From a virus: a stretch of 22,500 nucleotides of DNA. Location of the stretch: positions 1 through 22,500 of the IMG/VR virus record IMGVR_UViG_3300032516_000217; one strand, 5' to 3'. This document shows, piece by piece, positions 352 to 16,217 of this stretch (its first letter is position 1; each line of letters starts with the position of its first letter). Under the pieces are notes generated by a model that saw nothing but the letters and a program-made list of their open reading frames with translations, was not told the origin of the DNA and made no database searches. The position numbers were made by a program, and so were the translations under genes.

Positions 352-2739
352 ATGTTGCTATTAGAACGTATTATTGGTGAAGCAAAGATACTGGAATCCG
401 ATCGGACGAAGCTGCCGGATGGTGTTCTCTGCAGGGTCAAAGAACCGGTTTGCAACGTCGACCAACTGAATGCGAACAAGCGAAAGTACGGTTGGGACGT
501 GTGGGAAAAGGTTATGGATAACCAAACCCTGACAGAACAGATGCAGAAACGTGCTCTGTTCGGTCACGCGGAACATCCCGCTACGTCTCAGTCGGATTTA
601 CAGTTGGTCTCCCATGCGATTCTTGAATGGGTGATCGATAAGCCCGGTAACACCGTTTATCAGGTGTTCGACGTGTTTGATACCCCCACCGGTCGTATCG
701 TTGACTGTCTACTCAGAGCCCAGTGTAAGGTTGGTGTGTCTACCAGGGCAGAGGGTGAGTTGACCGAAGAGGTTGATGAGAAGTCCAAACAAAAGTATCA
801 ACGGGTGATCGCAGATAAATATAAATACATCACCACTGACTTCACTGCCGATCCCTCGACGTTTGGTGCTATCCCTATCGAGGTCAAGCGAAACGTGGTT
901 ACTGAAATTAAAGCTGCTGCGAATTGCAGGAAGGCAACAGCTAACGATAAGAAATTCGCAGGAGTCATCTTGGAATCGATGCACTGTAAGGACAAGACTA
1001 AGTGTCAGCACTGTGGTTGTTGTGATGCTATTAAAGAGGCGACGGTATCAATCGTCGCGGATCCAAATCAAGGTCTGGTTAATGTTGGTGGTGATGTTGG
1101 TGCCGTCAATATCAATCCGACATCTACTAATATCAATCCTGGTGGTGCCGTTCAGATCACTGTTACCACTACTCCGCCCGTCCAACTGGCACAGCCTGTT
1201 GAACCCCCCGCGGAGGGTACTCCTGAGCAGTTGGGGGTTGATGATGAGGCTCATGAGAATCCAGAGAAAGAGACTGATGATGCCCCCGATGAAGACGAAG
1301 TTGAGGAGTCTAAGATCAACGAGGACACTAGCGGTCTTCTTGGTAAGATTGCGGCACTTCGGAAGGAAATTGACGCAATTAGGCTTGATGGATGGGAACA
1401 GACGAAGTTGGCTCGTAAGCTTGAGAAGGAAGGAAATAAGAAAGAATCAGTCGCCAAACATAAAGAGGCAGATAGGCTTAATAAGGAGTATAACAGGCTT
1501 CGTAAGGCAATGATAAAGGATCTCGTTAGTTCGTACGATATCAAGACCAACGAGTCGAAGGTTAACGAAGGAGTTAAGATTTGGACGGAGGAAGAATTCC
1601 AGGGAGATAAAAATTTCGACGAGTATAAGGTTCTCAACGCTGTTGTGTCCTTCGATATAGACTTAGATAGAAACAAAGAAAAGGTATCAAGTAAGATTGA
1701 GAGGTCTTTTGGTCCAGCCACTGACGCTACGGAAGGCGAGGATTTTTGGTTTGGGGTTATTGATGAAAAACCGTTTGCTATAGTGTCGTCCGAGGGTACG
1801 GTTGAATTAAGTGCGGTGGATGATGAGACCGTTGAGAAAGTCGCCCAGTACATGGACTTGGAACAACAGTGGGCACAAGAACCTAACACCAACGTACCAA
1901 ACGAGTCGAAGGTCAACGAAGCAAAGATGAAGCACTTTAAAGTGAAGATGGATTTGATATTTGGTGAGACCAGTGAATACGCCAGTATTGAAGCAGTTGA
2001 AAAACTGATTCGGGATAAATTCTCGCACGCTCTAAAGTCCGTGCACGTGTATGGTAGTGCTGCCGGTGTTGAAGAGTCTGCCAGTGCTATGCTTAAGGAA
2101 GCGACCCAGCTTAAGATTGATGCTGCGACCCTTCGGGCTGAGCGTGATCGTCTTGCTGAGGCTGTCAATGGAACATCCGACAAGGTTTTGCAACTGAAAA
2201 TAGCCACCACCAAGATTCACGAGATGCAGAAGTCTGAGAACGGTGAGGTTACTGCCCTGCGGACTAAATTGGAGGAAAAAGCCACTACTGCAGCCGACGC
2301 TACTAAGAAGCTGGTTGAGTCTACCGCTGCTATTACAACCCTTAACGAAAAGGTCAAGGAACTGACCGTGGGTAACGAGAAGACTCTCGAAGAGAACAAG
2401 CTAAAGATCGAAAGCGTAGAAAATGGGGCAAAGAAAGCTCTCGTAGAACAAGTGAATAAGGCCAAGACGGACGCGACACGTGCTGTGATTATAGAGTACG
2501 TGGGTCGTCAGTTGAAGGCTTTCAAATCGGTACATGATAACGTTCGGGCACTTCTCGAAAAATGCATGACGATTGCAGAGGTCGACGAGGTCCTCAACGA
2601 ATTCCGAGACTCCCAGCGACGGAGTGCACTTCATTCCAAGCCGCCCAAAGAGATCACGGTTCGCAAGGACGAATCAGGGACGAACAATGATGTAAGGAAA
2701 CGTGTGGGTATGGTATTTGAAGGTTTTGGAATGTCATAG
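352..2739 (+). CDS. Prohead maturation protease fused to coiled-coil scaffold (T4 gp21/gp22-like)
   Basis: Residues 1 to about 205 look like a T4 gp21-type prohead serine protease: FGHAEHP with candidate catalytic His75 (H72 nearby), LVSHAILEW, VGVSTRAEG with candidate nucleophile Ser130 (55 residues after His75), and a DPSTFGAIP segment. A short Cys-rich stretch follows (about 210-225, five Cys), then a Pro/Thr/acidic linker. Three ESK[IV]NE motifs (residues 319-324, 401-406, 518-523) separate segments with no recognised fold. About residues 570-715 are a long Ala/Glu/Lys coiled coil, followed by a basic C-terminal region ending VFEGFGMS, as in phage scaffold proteins. The start has AAGGAG 8 bases upstream. 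In T4 the protease (gp21) and scaffold (gp22) are separate genes, each less than half this length; the fusion is reminiscent of the herpesvirus protease-scaffold. It sits directly before the capsid gene, as expected. The protease call is firm, scaffold role is inferred. Confidence 0.85.
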   Translation: MLLLERIIGEAKILESDRTKLPDGVLCRVKEPVCNVDQLNANKRKYGWDVWEKVMDNQTLTEQMQKRALFGHAEHPATSQSDLQLVSHAILEWVIDKPGNTVYQVFDVFDTPTGRIVDCLLRAQCKVGVSTRAEGELTEEVDEKSKQKYQRVIADKYKYITTDFTADPSTFGAIPIEVKRNVVTEIKAAANCRKATANDKKFAGVILESMHCKDKTKCQHCGCCDAIKEATVSIVADPNQGLVNVGGDVGAVNINPTSTNINPGGAVQITVTTTPPVQLAQPVEPPAEGTPEQLGVDDEAHENPEKETDDAPDEDEVEESKINEDTSGLLGKIAALRKEIDAIRLDGWEQTKLARKLEKEGNKKESVAKHKEADRLNKEYNRLRKAMIKDLVSSYDIKTNESKVNEGVKIWTEEEFQGDKNFDEYKVLNAVVSFDIDLDRNKEKVSSKIERSFGPATDATEGEDFWFGVIDEKPFAIVSSEGTVELSAVDDETVEKVAQYMDLEQQWAQEPNTNVPNESKVNEAKMKHFKVKMDLIFGETSEYASIEAVEKLIRDKFSHALKSVHVYGSAAGVEESASAMLKEATQLKIDAATLRAERDRLAEAVNGTSDKVLQLKIATTKIHEMQKSENGEVTALRTKLEEKATTAADATKKLVESTAAITTLNEKVKELTVGNEKTLEENKLKIESVENGAKKALVEQVNKAKTDATRAVIIEYVGRQLKAFKSVHDNVRALLEKCMTIAEVDEVLNEFRDSQRRSALHSKPPKEITVRKDESGTNNDVRKRVGMVFEGFGMS

Positions 2740-2749
2740 GAGGAAGATC

Positions 2750-4273
2750 ATGGATCTTCACGAAGCAATTCGGCAGGAGATGCTCCTGCTTGAGCAAAGA
2801 CGTGACTCTCTTTGTGAGAAGCCGGCCATTAAGCCGTATCTCGAAGAGGTCAGTTCGTACATTCAAAAGACCCAGAACCGTGAAATGACGGTTATGGAGA
2901 AGCGAAACATCGCCCAGTGCCTCGATAACGCCATTATGGAAGGCGGCATTCGTCAGGGACAGCGATTGTTCGAGAACACGACCACGGAAGACCACATTAG
3001 TTTCCTGGGCATTCAGCTGCCCGTGATTAGTGCGTTGCTTCCGTCACTGACCCTGAACGACGTTGCCACAGTGCAAGCGCTTGATCGGCGTATCGGTGCG
3101 GTATTCTTCATGGACTTCCTTTCCGGGTCCGCGAAGGGTGAGGTTGGACTTGGTGAGACGCTGTTCAGCTCGAAGAGCGGTCCAAACGCCAAGGGTGGTG
3201 CCCGTCGGTACGCGATGGCTGCTGCGGAGCGTGAGGAAGTTGGTTACGGCGATACGACGTTCACGTCCGTGACTGGAATCAACCCAGGTTTGATTCTGCG
3301 TGATAACATCGTCGTTGAAGCTACGGATAGCTATGGTAACGTGTGGGAGATCGGTGTTTGCTCCTCGGCTGGTGTGATTACCACGAGCCCGAACGCTGGT
3401 TCCGGCGTTACCTGCGTTGGTTCCATCGCCACGTCTGGTGTGTATACCATCGCGGTCGGTGGTCTGCTTGACAGCACGACCAAGGTTACGATTACGTACT
3501 ACTATCAGTACGATTTGCCCGTTGACAATCAGGGTAACAAGACGGGCGTTCCTGAGGTCGACCTGACGGTCACCCAGGAAACGATCACCGCGGTTGACTT
3601 CCCGATTCGGTCGAAGTACAGCATCGGTGCCCAGATTGATCTGCAGAAGGCACACGGCTTGAGCCTTGAGGACGAGCTTGTGAAGGTGCTCGGTGGCGCT
3701 GTGAAGTGGGCCATCGATCAGAGAGGTTTGGACATGATGATCGCCGCATCCACGGCGACCGGCGCTGCTACTCAGTGCACCACGTGGGATGCTCACATCC
3801 ACAGCGGCCAAGCCTGGCTGTGGCATAAGTACGAGTTCCTGGATCGTCTTAACGAAGGTAGCAACAACATCTTCGATAAGACCAAGCGTGGTGTTGCTAA
3901 TTTCATGATTTGCGGCAACAATGTTGCCCGAGTTGTGAGGCAGCTTACACAAGGTGGGGATTTCAAGGCTTCCGCCGCTCTTGGCAAGCAGATTCCCACA
4001 GGTCCGCTGAATATCGGTAACGTGTCGAGCGTCAATAACATGGTTGTGATTCAGAACCCGTTCATGGATTCGAACACGTACACGCTCGGCTTTAAGGGTG
4101 ACAGCTACCTGTACGCAAGCTTCATCTATGCTCCGTACATCCCGCTGTTCGCGACCCCGACGCTGATCACCTCCGACCTGATCGCTCAGAAGGGCTTCCT
4201 TTCGAGCGCTGGGTTCAAAGTGATCAACCCTGGTCTGTTCTGTGCTGGTGGAATTTCCAACCTCGGAGTCTAA
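2750..4273 (+). CDS. Major capsid protein (T4 gp23-like)
   Basis: A 507-residue protein close in length to T4 gp23 (521). ATG 2750 is chosen because TAGGAGGA lies just upstream and overlaps the previous stop; the frame extends further upstream but without a ribosome site. Features typical of the family are a helical N-terminal region (1-75), a core entry around 84-120 with VATVQALDRRIGAVFFMDF, a Gly/Val/Thr-rich inserted beta region (about 180-280), the segment around 300-330 with KYSIGAQIDLQKAHGL, and a C-terminal P-domain-like stretch with GFKGDSYLYAS and YAPYIPL. IME at residues 62-64 followed by GG fits a gp21-type maturation cleavage and is almost exactly where T4 gp23 is cut (after residue 65). 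Codon use is more GC-rich than in neighbouring accessory genes, as is common for very highly expressed capsid genes. Confidence 0.9.
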   Translation: MDLHEAIRQEMLLLEQRRDSLCEKPAIKPYLEEVSSYIQKTQNREMTVMEKRNIAQCLDNAIMEGGIRQGQRLFENTTTEDHISFLGIQLPVISALLPSLTLNDVATVQALDRRIGAVFFMDFLSGSAKGEVGLGETLFSSKSGPNAKGGARRYAMAAAEREEVGYGDTTFTSVTGINPGLILRDNIVVEATDSYGNVWEIGVCSSAGVITTSPNAGSGVTCVGSIATSGVYTIAVGGLLDSTTKVTITYYYQYDLPVDNQGNKTGVPEVDLTVTQETITAVDFPIRSKYSIGAQIDLQKAHGLSLEDELVKVLGGAVKWAIDQRGLDMMIAASTATGAATQCTTWDAHIHSGQAWLWHKYEFLDRLNEGSNNIFDKTKRGVANFMICGNNVARVVRQLTQGGDFKASAALGKQIPTGPLNIGNVSSVNNMVVIQNPFMDSNTYTLGFKGDSYLYASFIYAPYIPLFATPTLITSDLIAQKGFLSSAGFKVINPGLFCAGGISNLGV

Positions 4274-4306
4274 ACCAGTAAGTGCTGCCCGCCAAGGATG
4301 GTATGA

Positions 4307-4340
4307 CGCCGGGGAGGCAATCCTCCCCGGCGTTTTTGTT
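4307..4340 (+). terminator. Strong intrinsic terminator after the capsid gene
   Basis: A perfect 11-bp stem (CGCCGGGGAGG at 4307-4317 pairing with CCTCCCCGGCG at 4322-4332), a 4-nt CAAT loop, then TTTTTGTT. It lies 33 bases past the capsid stop and is the only strong rho-independent terminator I could see in the window. It would isolate capsid transcription from the genes downstream. Confidence 0.9.
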
Positions 4341-4354
4341 ATTTGGGGCACTTC

Positions 4355-4651
4355 ATGATAATCCAGAAAATCAAATCGCTGAAAGATCAAACCCTCGACA
4401 CAACGGCCGATCGTAAGTCGTTGGTTGTGGGTGAAGTCATTAACATGAATTTCCTCAGTCAGGCCCAGCTCATGTCGTTTGTTGATATTGGCGTACTTGA
4501 GTTAGCCGATCAGAACGAGCCGGACAAAAAGGTCATTCCGGTGATTGGGGAACGAAAGTTTGTTGATGACGTGACAAAGAGAGAGATAGAAATACCGGTG
4601 GTATTTAACCCGGGATTCAAGTTGGAAGAACACTTGAGGAGCGTGGTATAA
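4355..4651 (+). CDS. Small protein of unknown function (98 aa)
   Basis: Start ATG 4355 follows a TTTGGGGC stretch, about 6 bases upstream, which would serve as a weak ribosome site; a TTG at 4343 in the same frame is an alternative. The protein is soluble, mixed alpha/beta by inspection, with no Cys and no membrane segment. It begins with a Lys-rich amphipathic segment and has a central VIPVIGERKFVDD stretch. It lies between the capsid terminator and the HNH gene, so transcription must come from readthrough or a promoter I cannot define. I do not recognise the family; a minor head or head-tail joining role is possible from position only. Confidence 0.6.
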   Translation: MIIQKIKSLKDQTLDTTADRKSLVVGEVINMNFLSQAQLMSFVDIGVLELADQNEPDKKVIPVIGERKFVDDVTKREIEIPVVFNPGFKLEEHLRSVV

Positions 4652-4657
4652 TTGGGT

Positions 4658-5590
4658 ATGGAAACCAAAATTTGTACAAAATGTGGCAATGAAAAACCGG
4701 CAACGGAAGAGAACTTCTACAAACATAAAAATGGTTTACATGGATTGGCATCGTGGTGTAAAGAATGCTTCCAGTTGTACCGGAATGATCATGCTGATGA
4801 TAGGAATAGAAAATCCTTGGGTCGAAAGCTTCTCGTTCTTTCCAATTATGGTGGTTCATGTTCCGTTTGTGGTATCACCGACCCGGCCTTCTTAACTATT
4901 GACCATATCAACAATGACGGTTCCGACCAAAAGTTTTCCGATCCAAGTTCTCGACATTTATATGATTGGTTGATTCGCAATAATTTCCCGCAAGGTTTCC
5001 AAGCTCTATGCTGGAACCATAATCACCTGAAGTTTTTTGAGAATAGGCGATTAAGGAATAATAGGTCTGCTGAAAAATATGTTAGATCGAATGATAAAAT
5101 CAAGTGTTTCGTCATTGGCCATTATGGTGTCCAGTGTGTCTGCTGTGGTGAGACTAATATTAATATTCTAACCATTGATCATATTAATGGTCATGGAAAT
5201 AAACACAGAATTCAGACCGGTTGTGGAACTGGTGTTAAGTTTTATCGTTGGTTACGTGATAATAATTTTCCATCAGAATTCAGAGTTTTGTGTTGTAATT
5301 GTAATGATGGAAGACGTGTAAACGGCGGTGTTTGTCCTCATGAATTAAGGAGATCATATGGCAAGAGACTACACCAAGTATCTGACTTGGTTACGTCAAG
5401 AGTTCCGTCCATTAACTCTGGCTACCCCAGAGGGTACCCTCAAGCAAATCGTGGAGAACAGCATAAGGTACTGGAACACAAACAGTGCCTACAAGTTGGG
5501 CACAATGGTCAATTATGCTGCTCTAACCAAGAGGGTTCAACTAAATGCCCAGTTCAAAACGGTCGTGGATTAAATGATGGTCCACGTTAA
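4658..5590 (+). CDS. Free-standing double-HNH homing endonuclease
   Basis: The chain opens with a zinc-binding pair of CxxC units (Cys6/9 and Cys34/37), a common start in phage HNH nucleases, then carries two tandem copies of the same HNH-like module. Module 1 (about residues 60-125) has CSVCG, LTIDHIN (Asp82-His83) and an LCWNHN end; module 2 (about 155-228) has CVCCG, LTIDHIN (Asp174-His175) and LCCNCN. In this family the DH pair and the final Asn supply the metal-dependent nuclease site. The natural end is probably near NGGVCPH (226-228): the remnant at 18890-19063 stops a few residues after the same motif. Here no stop follows, and the last 80 or so residues are an out-of-frame reading of exon 1 of the next gene, ending 20 bases inside intron 1. 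GAGGAG at 4636-4641 is 10 bases before an in-frame TTG at 4652, an alternative start. The AT-rich composition suggests transfer. Confidence 0.85.
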   Translation: METKICTKCGNEKPATEENFYKHKNGLHGLASWCKECFQLYRNDHADDRNRKSLGRKLLVLSNYGGSCSVCGITDPAFLTIDHINNDGSDQKFSDPSSRHLYDWLIRNNFPQGFQALCWNHNHLKFFENRRLRNNRSAEKYVRSNDKIKCFVIGHYGVQCVCCGETNINILTIDHINGHGNKHRIQTGCGTGVKFYRWLRDNNFPSEFRVLCCNCNDGRRVNGGVCPHELRRSYGKRLHQVSDLVTSRVPSINSGYPRGYPQANRGEQHKVLEHKQCLQVGHNGQLCCSNQEGSTKCPVQNGRGLNDGPR

Positions 5591-6820
5591 AGCCGCTCAA
5601 TTCGGTGAACTTCTTATAAATATAAGAAAATACCGAGCCAGACTCCGATTTTTCGGCAGCAATGGTGTAACGACTACGCCCCGTAAAGTGATTTACGGGA
5701 CTACGGCGGCCGACCAAATGGTCGATGGTATAGTCTGAACCGTGCAGTGATGTACGGAGATGAGCCGAAAGACTCGTCCGCCCACCATATGGTGGGTCAT
5801 GAAAGTAACAGTTTGATCTACCCTGATAAAACGACCACGTGGATTAGTAATATGGTTCACGATAAAGCCGCTCAATTCGGTGAACTTCTTAGAACGCTAA
5901 GAAAATACCGAGCCAGATTGTTGAGAAAAATCAACAACAATGGTGTAACGACTACGTTTCTTGGGGCGACCCAAGAGGCTACGGCGGCCGACCAAACGGT
6001 CGATGGTATAGTCTGGACTGCACGGCGACGTGCAGAGGTGAGTCGAAAGTCTCGCCCGCCCATTATGGTAATGGGTCATAAAGTAACAGACAGCTGGAAC
6101 GACCATCAATGTGGTGGCTTTGCCGGGCGACCGGCATCGAAGAATTCCGTAAACTGCGGGAACATCCGAGGATCCCAAACTACTCGCCGTACGGCAGTAA
6201 CAATGTTTGGGTGCGGACAATCCGCAACCAAGCCCTTCGCGGCCACCGCGTGAGGGAAGGCTCAACGAGCATAATCGGAACGTCTCACTGAGACGGTGGT
6301 GTGCTCTGAACCATACAGCGATGTATGGAGTTCGGCAGAAATGACCGAACCGCCAGAAACGACTGGTGGTAACAGATTGCCATTGTGGACCCTTATGGGC
6401 ATTTCGGTGATGGACAACGTAACCGGTGACCTGATCATGATGTCGGAAGCCTTCCGTAACTATCGGGTTTATGTTGGGGTAGACTTCCAATGGCAGTTTG
6501 ATAAGTCAGACGTGCCCGGTGTTGGTGGGTATCTTTATTGTATCAACGTACCGTCCGGCACCCAGAAGCTATTCGTAATGGGGACAAAGAGGATCCTTGA
6601 GGAAGAGGACGTAAAGGTTGAGCAGGTCCTCGACTGGCTTTATCGATATAGTAAGGCTCAGTTGAAGCAGATTGAGGGTAACACCCTTCGCAAGAGCGCC
6701 ATCATCAACGTCGCTAACGACGGTCAAGCACTCGTGGATGAGGGCAAGGAAGAAATGAAAGACCTGCAAGATCGGTTGTCAAAAGATAGTAGATGGGTGC
6801 TGCTCGCGAAACGATGTTAG
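5358..6820 (+). CDS. Virion structural protein, split by three group I introns (231 aa after splicing)
   Basis: Exons are 5358-5570, 5816-5844, 6094-6106 and 6380-6820. AAGGAG at 5347-5352 sets the ATG start. Unspliced, translation stops at TAA immediately after codon 71 (GAT). Joined, the reading frame runs without a break: exon 1 ends TVVD in phase 0, exon 2 gives IYPDKTTTW plus AT, exon 3 supplies C to complete Ile and then WNDH, and exon 4 opens PLWTLMGISV. The product is a soluble alpha/beta protein with a helical C-terminus (LKQIEGNTLR, DGQALVDEGKEEM) of a kind I associate with unnamed head-neck structural proteins of T4-like and jumbo phages. I cannot assign a precise role. Group I introns usually invade conserved parts of essential genes, which fits. 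The exon borders are inferred from P1 pairing, frame and a constant 3' end pattern (TAACAGNNNG in all three introns), not from RNA data. Confidence 0.8.
5571..5815 (+). ncRNA. Group I intron 1 (IA-like, 245 nt)
   Basis: P1: 5' exon CGTGGAT (5564-5570) pairs with GTCCACG (5580-5586), with the expected U.G at the splice site. P3: GCCGCT 5592-5597 with GGCGGC 5705-5710. P4: TTCGGT 5601-5606 with ACCGAG 5632-5637. P5: TTCTTA 5611-5616 with TAAGAA 5623-5628. P6a: CCGA with TCGG (5645-5656). P7: GACTA 5672-5676 with TAGTC 5731-5735. An 8-bp hairpin with GTGA loop (5680-5699) lies between P7 and P3', as in subgroup IA. P8: CGACC/GGTCG (5711-5724). P9: 5740-5757 with GTGA loop, followed by two more hairpins including CCCACCATATGGTGGG. 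The terminal G is placed at 5815. No ORF is inside, so it would need a nuclease supplied in trans to home. Confidence 0.9.
5845..6093 (+). ncRNA. Group I intron 2 (IA-like, 249 nt), paralogue of intron 1
   Basis: The core is nearly identical to intron 1 (AAAGCCGCTCAATTCGGTGA, AATACCGAGCC, GTGTAACGACTACG, CGATGGTATAGTCTG) while the peripheral stems differ in sequence but keep pairing: P5 TTCTTAG/CTAAGAA, P6 TTGTTGA/TCAACAA, the P7-P3' hairpin TCTTGGG/CCCAAGA with GCGA loop, P9 CTGCACG/CGTGCAG with GCGA loop, P9.1 GGTGAG/CTCGCC, and CCCATTA/TAATGGG. P1 pairs exon CGTGGAT (5838-5844) with GTTCACG (5855-5861). The 3' end fits G6093 (TAACAGACAG). The intron is 83 codons long and has no stop in the exon frame. 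Confidence 0.9.
6107..6379 (+). ncRNA. Group I intron 3 (273 nt), different lineage from introns 1 and 2
   Basis: P1: exon ACCAT (6102-6106) with GTGGT (6111-6115), terminal U.G. P2: GCCGG/CCGGC (6122-6135) with GCGA loop. P3: TTCCG 6145-6149 with CGGAA 6276-6280. P4 TGCGG with CCGCA, and P5 CCCAAAC with GTTTGGG, enclosing CCGTACGG. P6a CGCGG/CCGCG. P7: GAGCA 6267-6271 with TGCTC 6302-6306. P8: GTCTC/GAGAC (6282-6294). P9: CCATACA/TGTATGG with GCGA loop (6311-6328), then TTCGG/CCGAA and CCGCC/GGTGG hairpins. The Q-like element AATCCGCAACCAAGCCC is close to that of T4-type introns. The 3' end TAACAGATTG (G6379) matches the pattern of introns 1 and 2. An in-frame stop (TGA 6251-6253) blocks ribosomes in the P6 region. 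Confidence 0.87.
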
Positions 6821-6859
6821 GAGAAGGTATGCCTAGTGAATTAAAATCGGGGGGTCAAG

Positions 6860-14634: not shown

Positions 14635-14833
14635 TACATTCCAAAAACTTGGTATCAAGCTGCTTGCCACGAAGCTTCTACACGACTACCGAGAATGCAA
14701 GGCTTCGGTTCCTGAGACCGAGCTTGAACACTTTTCACAGAAGTGGTTCGGTGTATGGGTTGATGCGGACGATGACTATAAGGAATCAGTATTCATGGAG
14801 TTTATGGGGGTGCTCAGTGATCGGTCTACTTGA
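14627..14833 (+). CDS. Small unknown protein (68 aa)
   Basis: GTG 14627 is the likely start, since CGGAGG at 14615-14620 is 6 bases upstream. It overlaps the preceding gene by 8 bases and the following one by 17. The product is helical and acidic, with FSQKWFGVWVDADDDYKES in the middle. The family is not recognised. Confidence 0.55.
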   Translation: MNSTFQKLGIKLLATKLLHDYRECKASVPETELEHFSQKWFGVWVDADDDYKESVFMEFMGVLSDRST

Positions 14834-16217
14834 ACGACTATTGAAGATATATGAGGGATGGAAAGATGTTTACCATCAGTTCGTAGACTCCGGTAAAGTT
14901 TCAGCTGCCGTGTTTACAAAATTCCGAACTGAGGACCCTTCTGATACCAAGAAGTACCTTCAATGGATGTGCAAACAATATATTTCAAATCCCGGTCGTC
15001 AGACCCATATTGTTGATGTGGTAAAAATGTTTGATCAACAAGTTCAACGAAATCTGATAAAGGGTGATGAATCAGATATTAACAAGTATGATTTGGAGGG
15101 GGCGGACAAAGTTGCAAAGAAACAATCACAAGAAAAAACCCATGGTGAAGTAAAACGAGAACAAAAGTCCGAATCCATAATTGTTGATGAGACCGATGAC
15201 TACCTGATTGTGGTTCCCGAGTCCCATTCCGCTTCCTGTTTCTATGGAGCCAATACCAAGTGGTGTACTTCGGGAAAAACAGCGGAGCATTGGGATTCGT
15301 ATTGGAAAGAAAATATCAAAATCTACATTATTATAGATAAAAAGAAAAACAAGAAGTACGCCATAGCCGTAGGCCCAAACGGTGCGATGGAAGCCTTTGA
15401 TGAAAAGGATCGTAAAATTTCCCTTCCATCAATCGAGAAGCAAATGGGGTTGAAGTTACCCGATATATTTAAGCCATTAACCAAACAGGCAACAACTGGT
15501 AGAAAACAGAAACAAATAGAGGAAATTTTGTCCAAATCTACCAAGAACCCCGATGGTACGTATTCTACTGATGGAGATGTTAATTTTTCTTCTATGGGTC
15601 TGAAAAAACTGCCGGTAAAATTCAAATATGTTGGTGGGGATTTCGACTGCTATGACAATGAACTTACATCCCTGAATGGTGCCCCATCGAAGGTTGGTGG
15701 TAATTTCTACTGTAATCACAATCAACTTACGTCCCTGAATGGTGCCCCATCGGAGGTTGGTGGTGATTTCGACTGTGAATACAATCAACTTGCATCTTTG
15801 GAGGGTGCCCCATCGGGGGTTGATGGTAATTTCTACTGTTATAACAATCGACTCGCATCTTTGGAGGGTGCCCCATCGGGGGTTGATGGTAATTTCTACT
15901 GTTATAACAATCGACTCGCATCTCTGGAGGGTGCCCCATCGGAGGTTGGTGGTAGTTTCAAATGCAACGACAATCAACTTACATCCCTGAATGGTGCCCC
16001 ATCGGAGGTTGGTGGTAATTTCGACTGCTATGACAATGAACTTACGTCCCTGAATGGTGCCCCATCGGAGGTTGGTGGTGATTTCGACTGCAGCAACAAT
16101 CAACTTACGTCCCTGAATGGTGCCCCATCGGAGGTTGGTGGTGATTTCGACTGTGAATACAATCAACTCCCTCGTGATGAACTTATGAAAACAGTCGATA
16201 GGAGTTATTTAAAGTGA
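14817..16217 (+). CDS. Leucine-rich repeat protein with conserved TKWCTS domain (466 aa)
   Basis: GTG 14817, after TGGGGG (14805-14810), is preferred as start; the frame is open further upstream but there it only shadows the preceding gene. The chain opens with a leader (IGLLERLLKIYEG), then a helical region. Residues about 125-190 form a domain with YLIVVPESHSASCFYG, TKWCTS (Lys148-Trp149-Cys150) and IKIYIIIDK, which I have seen preceding LRR arrays in other large-phage proteins but cannot name. From residue 273 on there are eight full 21-residue repeats of the form GGxFxCxxNxLTSLxGAPSxV plus a ninth partial one, then a short cap. LRR arrays normally form a curved binding surface, so a host- or partner-binding role is plausible. 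The stop overlaps the next GTG. Confidence 0.75.
   Translation: MIGLLERLLKIYEGWKDVYHQFVDSGKVSAAVFTKFRTEDPSDTKKYLQWMCKQYISNPGRQTHIVDVVKMFDQQVQRNLIKGDESDINKYDLEGADKVAKKQSQEKTHGEVKREQKSESIIVDETDDYLIVVPESHSASCFYGANTKWCTSGKTAEHWDSYWKENIKIYIIIDKKKNKKYAIAVGPNGAMEAFDEKDRKISLPSIEKQMGLKLPDIFKPLTKQATTGRKQKQIEEILSKSTKNPDGTYSTDGDVNFSSMGLKKLPVKFKYVGGDFDCYDNELTSLNGAPSKVGGNFYCNHNQLTSLNGAPSEVGGDFDCEYNQLASLEGAPSGVDGNFYCYNNRLASLEGAPSGVDGNFYCYNNRLASLEGAPSEVGGSFKCNDNQLTSLNGAPSEVGGNFDCYDNELTSLNGAPSEVGGDFDCSNNQLTSLNGAPSEVGGDFDCEYNQLPRDELMKTVDRSYLK
15633..16169 (+). repeat. 63-bp tandem repeats coding leucine-rich repeats
   Basis: Units begin at 15633, 15696, 15759, 15822, 15885, 15948, 16011 and 16074, with a partial ninth at 16137. 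The conserved DNA core is GGTGCCCCATCGGAGGTTGG. The fourth and fifth units differ at only two positions, so array length is evolving by recent duplication. The variable codons are mostly those following the Cys and around the first Asn. Confidence 0.93.

Follow-up and report, generated by a model that had tools for sequence, protein, structure and literature searches.

A gene for a gp13-like neck protein in an uncultivated T4-related myovirus was found to carry three tandem insertions, which are very probably self-splicing group I introns removed from the mRNA. The gene lies at positions 5358-6820 of the window, i.e. the stretch of 22,500 nucleotides analyzed here (positions 1 to 22,500 of IMG/VR record IMGVR_UViG_3300032516_000217). 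The record of 22.5 kb contains genes for a prohead protease, a gp23-type capsid protein, a T4-type baseplate and a tail sheath. For the capsid protein, the best among the matches listed to known phages was ~30% identical. A separate observation in the structural region concerned the open reading frame 14649-16217, whose 3' part (~15650-16190) consists of repeated units (LTSLNGAPSEVGGDFDC and variants) and encodes a repetitive protein.

In the DNA, the reading frame of the gp13-like gene is interrupted and falls into pieces. Gene structure, intron folds, intron kinship and intron-free relatives were all computed, and the resulting features are listed in Table 1. Cutting out the three insertions restored one single frame of 231 residues. 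Their 3' ends are TAACAGTTTG, TAACAGACAG and TAACAGATTG for introns 1, 2 and 3, all of them closing with TAACAGNNNG, and because the intron ends differ from the exon ends the splice junctions were fixed to the base. Coordinates, exon sizes, the length of the restored frame and the common 3' ends were thereby reproduced exactly as an earlier note on this DNA had given them. The TAA formed by the first three bases of intron 1 is a stop codon in the gp13 frame, and a stop in this frame was also found in intron 3. Intron 2 is free of stops in the gp13 frame (open reading frame 5747-6253), so its retention would insert 83 residues in frame. Two other readings of the gene were discarded, an intein due to the stops in introns 1 and 3 and the RNA folds, and ribosomal frameshifting due to the presence of three insertions of 245-273 nt.

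Table 1. Features of the interrupted neck gene and of related intron-containing loci.
Feature	Sequence	Position	Strand	Description
Free-standing endonuclease ORF	window	4658..5590	+	two HNH/endonuclease VII-like units; PHROG HNH E 2e-24, endonuclease VII E 6e-13
AAGGAG	window	5347..5352	+	likely gp13 ribosome-binding site, from sequence
Exon 1, gp13-like neck gene	window	5358..5570	+	213 nt, 71 codons, ATG start; aligns with intact L002-L007
P1, intron 1	window	5564..5586	+	exon CGTGGAT 5564-5570 with guide GTCCACG 5580-5586; U.G at splice site
Intron 1, group I	window	5571..5815	+	245 nt, without ORF; RF00028 E 1.6e-9; fold z -5.8
Exon 2, ATCTACCCTGATAAAACGACCACGTGGAT	window	5816..5844	+	29 nt; IYPDKTTTW plus two bases of next codon
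P1, intron 2	window	5838..5861	+	exon CGTGGAT 5838-5844 with guide GTTCACG 5855-5861
Intron 2, group I, sister of intron 1	window	5845..6093	+	249 nt; RF00028 E 1.4e-10; fold z -7.4
Exon 3, CTGGAACGACCAT	window	6094..6106	+	13 nt; finishes I codon, then WNDH; WIWNDH conserved in relatives
P1, intron 3	window	6102..6115	+	exon ACCAT 6102-6106 with guide GTGGT 6111-6115
Intron 3, group I, second type	window	6107..6379	+	273 nt; RF00028 E 0.00045; fold z -5.5
Exon 4	window	6380..6820	+	441 nt including stop; aligns with intact relatives
gp23	L007	709-3593		introns of 1116 and 260 nt, 50-nt exon between
gp23	L175	2019-4422		three introns of 297, 325 and 312 nt; 15-nt exon; gp13 of L175 (4914-5606) intact
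gp23 of L192, other T4-like phage	contig L202	~1430-2090	-	introns of 329 and 286 nt around 12-nt exon TCAAAACTCGCT
Major capsid gene of L153, siphovirus-type	contig L200 (G009:C1:2500-9500)	~1290-5165	-	nine predicted group I introns, ten exons

The Rfam group I model RF00028 matched all three introns, as the earlier note had proposed to check, with E-values, from the strongest match to the weakest, of 2.1e-9, 2.5e-8 and 0.0068 when the whole window was searched; the values in Table 1 were obtained with the search restricted to 5340-6830. The corresponding bit scores of 47.4, 43.9 and 25.7, the lowest belonging to intron 3, all lay below the Rfam gathering score of 50, and a fast genome search missed two of the three introns. 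In the cmscan alignment, model positions 1-253 were spanned by each of them. The core helices P3-P9 occurred in the right order in all three introns when checked by hand, with the P6 of intron 3 taken from the cmscan alignment alone. None of 200 shuffled sequences was as stable as the predicted folds. For introns 1 and 2, P1 and P3-P9.2 could be written out free of mismatches, and all 122 cells in their ten helices paired, versus 42-50 of 122 when the partners were slid by 1-3 bases. The last base of the 5' exon, a U, pairs with a G of the guide in all three cases, each intron ends with a G, and P7 contains the guanosine-binding G-C pair (GACUA/UAGUC in introns 1 and 2, GAGCA/UGCUC in intron 3). 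The P7 of intron 3 (6267-6271 and 6302-6306 in the window) differs from that of the other two by two compensated changes. Introns 1 and 2 contain, between P7 and the 3' strand of P3, a P7.1/P7.2-type hairpin of 8-9 bp with a GNRA loop, which by its predicted pairing is as in subgroups IA1/IA2. Intron 3 has a P2, lacks P7.1/P7.2, and only 4 nt separate its P7 from P3; because this extra hairpin is absent it was not filed under IA1/IA2. Of the P10 pairings searched for, those of introns 1 and 2 were either ambiguous or as short as 3 bp.

The product of the interrupted gene is, as judged from sequence profiles and a structure model, a gp13-like neck (head-to-tail connector) protein. A profile built from the intact relatives and compared with PDB sequences matched gp13 chains only (E 0.005, over ~60 C-terminal residues). 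Foldseek searches with the model of the relative L002 recovered the connector/neck fold, with matches to the P1 connector (5e-7), to chains of the T4 portal-neck-tail complex (9e-5) and to neck proteins in BFVD. The mean pLDDT of this model was 70, and its loop 78-119, which covers part of the micro-exon residues, was poorly modelled. Relatives of the neck protein were not found in 50,697 phage records, using either the window protein or L002 as query. In viral contigs, eight relatives with 46-86% identity were detected, and in all of them the gene is uninterrupted. Six (L002-L007, 52-86% identical) align to the spliced product gap-free across all three junctions; the seventh (46%) and the eighth (L175, 50%) are likewise intact. 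The relatives contain KTTTWIWNDH and their alignment agrees with the junction positions, the outcome that the earlier note had expected from a comparison with homologues. The segment IYPDKTTTW-I-WNDH, to which both micro-exons contribute, belongs to the part of the protein that is best conserved, so accurate splicing is required for a working neck protein. Compared with L002, the closest relative, the residues of exon 2 are identical, and the 42 bases of the micro-exons show 6 substitutions, all of them synonymous (4 of 4 in exon 2, 2 of 2 in exon 3). For the whole gp13-like gene versus L002, pN/pS was ~0.15. The restriction of the micro-exon changes to synonymous positions, taken together with the low pN/pS, therefore indicates that selection acts on the micro-exons as coding sequence.

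These data also bear on the question of whether the insertions might be decayed introns which no longer splice, with the gp13 function provided by another copy or lost. The Rfam scores under threshold would fit such a decay, and as the record is a fragment of 22.5 kb a second gp13 copy is possible. Nevertheless, the catalytic pair of P7, the 5' U.G and the terminal G were retained in all three introns. A comparison of the paired positions of introns 1 and 2 revealed 49 identical pairs, 3 changed on one side and 11 changed on both sides in a compensatory manner, while none was broken. Since some of these features would have been lost in a decaying intron, and the synonymous micro-exon changes and the pN/pS point in the same direction, we consider non-splicing remnants very improbable. 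The evidence supported the description of the locus as a virion gene with a tandem array of three group I introns and exons of 29 and 13 nt between them.

Introns 1 and 2 are ~74% identical to each other, with the P3-P6 strand nearly unchanged, and formed a sister pair (support 0.987) in a tree of 83 distinct family members. Their neighbours in this tree were two gp23 introns of L007, followed by one gp23 intron of L175. A looser pattern of their P7-P9 core was present in at least 119 stretches in viral contigs, which assigns both introns to a common phage intron family. The exact 22-base intron core had no match in viral contigs, and blastn with the introns yielded only matches at chance level. 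Intron 3 belongs to a second intron family, distinct from that of introns 1 and 2; its best relative was the third of the introns in L175 gp23 (nhmmer E 1.5e-23). The similarity between introns 1 and 2 raises the question of an assembly artefact, in which sequences were joined chimerically or one intron was falsely duplicated in tandem, as repeats can mislead assembly. However, the two copies differ at about one quarter of their positions, including compensatory changes, the reading frame is restored exactly at each junction, and the same architecture was found independently in the contigs of L007, L175, L192 and L153. The probability of an artefact is close to negligible.

The same heptamer, CGTGGAT, directly precedes introns 1 and 2. 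Therefore, the most likely origin of the pair is the entry of a copy of one intron into another matching site at a distance of 29 nt, by reverse splicing or by endonuclease-driven recombination. L002 has the heptamer at site 2 and not at site 1. In the simplest history the intron at site 2, where the conserved TWI codons maintain the sequence, would be the older one, and a copy of it would have moved into a chance match 29 nt upstream.

Immediately upstream, a free-standing endonuclease gene is located between the gene 4343-4651 and the gp13-like gene. In L002 the counterparts of these two neighbours overlap by one base, and therefore the endonuclease gene is an insertion. Its frame crosses all of gp13 exon 1 in another frame and stops 20 nt into intron 1; a paralogue in L015, 52% identical, ends properly at 232 residues. 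An endonuclease gene was not found within any of introns 1-3. Collaborative homing, in which the HNH/endonuclease VII-like protein would act as a helper in trans for the ORF-free introns, is a plausible hypothesis. A comparable situation is known from cyanophage S-PM2, where the psbA site lacking the intron is the target of F-CphI, an endonuclease containing an endonuclease VII motif (PMC6083498). Both cases combine group I introns with a free-standing endonuclease carrying this type of motif, but there are three introns in the window instead of one. No intron was detected in the contig of L015, a close relative with the HNH paralogue, so assistance to introns is not necessarily the role of the HNH gene.

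In the proposed splicing mechanism, the guide of each intron would pair with the final 5-7 bases of the preceding exon, guanosine would be bound in P7, and the terminal G of the intron would direct the joining of the exons. The earlier note had argued that the P1 of intron 3 uses bases of the 13-nt exon and that intron 2 must leave first. The former was found to be correct, as ACCAT is exonic; the latter is not a necessary consequence, since P1 uses only these five bases, which adjoin intron 3, and can form before or after the removal of intron 2. A different consequence arises for exon 2. The guide of intron 1 (IGS1, -10.3 and -11.9 kcal/mol) and that of intron 2 (IGS2, -11.1 and -7.8 kcal/mol) can both pair with either 5' splice site, so that skipping of exon 2 is expected as a by-product. 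By analogy with Twort orf142 and with SIOphi, where exon skipping was observed in 47% of transcripts (PMC11878797), such skipping is likely to some extent.

It was also considered whether the exon-skipped mRNA might be the main product in vivo, with introns 1 and 2 acting as one large unit and exon 2 often lost. This is consistent with the shared guide pairing, with the almost unchanged P3-P6 strand common to both introns, and with the precedents of SIOphi and of Twort orf142 (PMC10136302). On the other hand, loss of exon 2 yields a frameshifted product of 91 residues, and purifying selection acts on exon 2, which must therefore be retained often enough to sustain function. Overall, we regard a predominance of the skipped mRNA as unlikely. 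Loss of exon 3 results in a product of 90 residues, and the simultaneous loss of exons 2 and 3 in an in-frame protein of 217 residues without the 14 conserved ones. One may still speculate that in this phage lineage the micro-exon arrays are maintained and functional, that introns 1 and 2 cooperate (also as hybrid ribozymes), and that the ratio between retention and skipping of exon 2 sets the amount of full-length neck protein late in infection; we give this only a slim chance.

The rarity of such small exons had been overstated in the earlier note, as related loci with exons of 12, 15 and 50 nt between introns were found. In phages of the same lineage, gp23 is split by one to three introns (L007, L005 and L175), with exons of 50 and 15 nt. 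These introns share phage lineage and intron families with those of the window gene and are in tandem in L007 and L175, but they reside in gp23 instead of gp13, and one of them carries an ORF: the 1116-nt intron of L007 encodes 305 amino acids with a TnsA-like endonuclease domain (PF08722, E 8e-13). For gp23 of L192, the comparison of the spliced product with the gp23 sequence of phage phiW-14, AFKTRYGVVANPF, which it equals, sets the 12-nt exon. The capsid exons of L200 measure 17, 64, 115, 40, ~136, 503, 49, 41, 50 and 26 nt, the end of exon 5 having been placed by length match to homologues. Every 5' exon ends with T and every intron with G, and after splicing the protein can be aligned with the intact capsid proteins L204 and L205. 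One of the L200 introns contains an ORF of 172 amino acids that appeared GIY-YIG-like by eye. On the minus strand of L199 (10755-11789; G008:C1:13288-14322), four tandem RF00028 matches were observed with an HNH-like ORF at their upstream end. The gene interrupted by these matches resembles, by eye, one for a tail tape-measure protein, and the exons between them seem very short.

Among known systems, the precedent named in the earlier note, Twort with three introns in one gene, was an apt one. The tail tube gene orf142 of Staphylococcus phage Twort contains three group I introns, two of them similar, has a short exon of 23 nt and shows exon skipping (Landthaler and Shub 1999, as described in PMC10136302 and PMC11878797). 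Both genes are virion genes with three group I introns, two of which are close kin flanking a very short exon. In contrast to Twort orf142, the window gene has two consecutive micro-exons, is a neck gene, and its introns are free of ORFs; its kin introns have identical 7-nt 5' sites, the phages are unrelated, and splicing in the window is predicted. Three introns per gene were also reported for polymerase and terminase genes of Bastillevirinae (PMC11878797). In a crAss-like phage the capsid gene occurs in five fragments (PMC7886860), and in Jug phages genes are frequently interrupted, with splicing of 37 of the 76 predicted introns supported by RNA reads (PMC12363816). These are likewise metagenomic phages in which several group I introns divide core genes, that of the major capsid protein among them, but they have other hosts and belong to other phage groups, and the parts of these two reports considered do not describe micro-exons this small. 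In cluster J mycobacteriophages, whose genomes are rich in free-standing HNH endonucleases, group I introns are spliced from capsid and tail genes as shown by RT-PCR; these are virion-gene introns as in the window, but with one intron per gene (PMC3706429). Micro-exons of 12-15 bp are known from the mitochondrial cob and cox1 genes of Armillaria, which are similarly tiny and lie in intron-rich genes, but are organellar and not from phages (PMC6506933).

Taken together, the window gene represents a known arrangement with an extreme exon size and no new kind of system, and the wider pattern of micro-exon arrays is the more interesting part compared to the single gene. The exon size between phage group I introns is lowered to 13 nt here and 12 nt in L192, versus the 23 nt given for Twort in the part of the published record considered. 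Crowding of introns in virion genes recurs, the highest number being the nine introns predicted for the capsid gene of L153, and the presence of two introns with equivalent guide targets at a distance of 29 nt suggests a way in which such arrays grow. These loci offer natural constructs for testing how adjacent ribozymes keep their splice sites apart. As gene callers break genes of this kind, neck, capsid and tape-measure genes may look missing or truncated in metagenomic phages.
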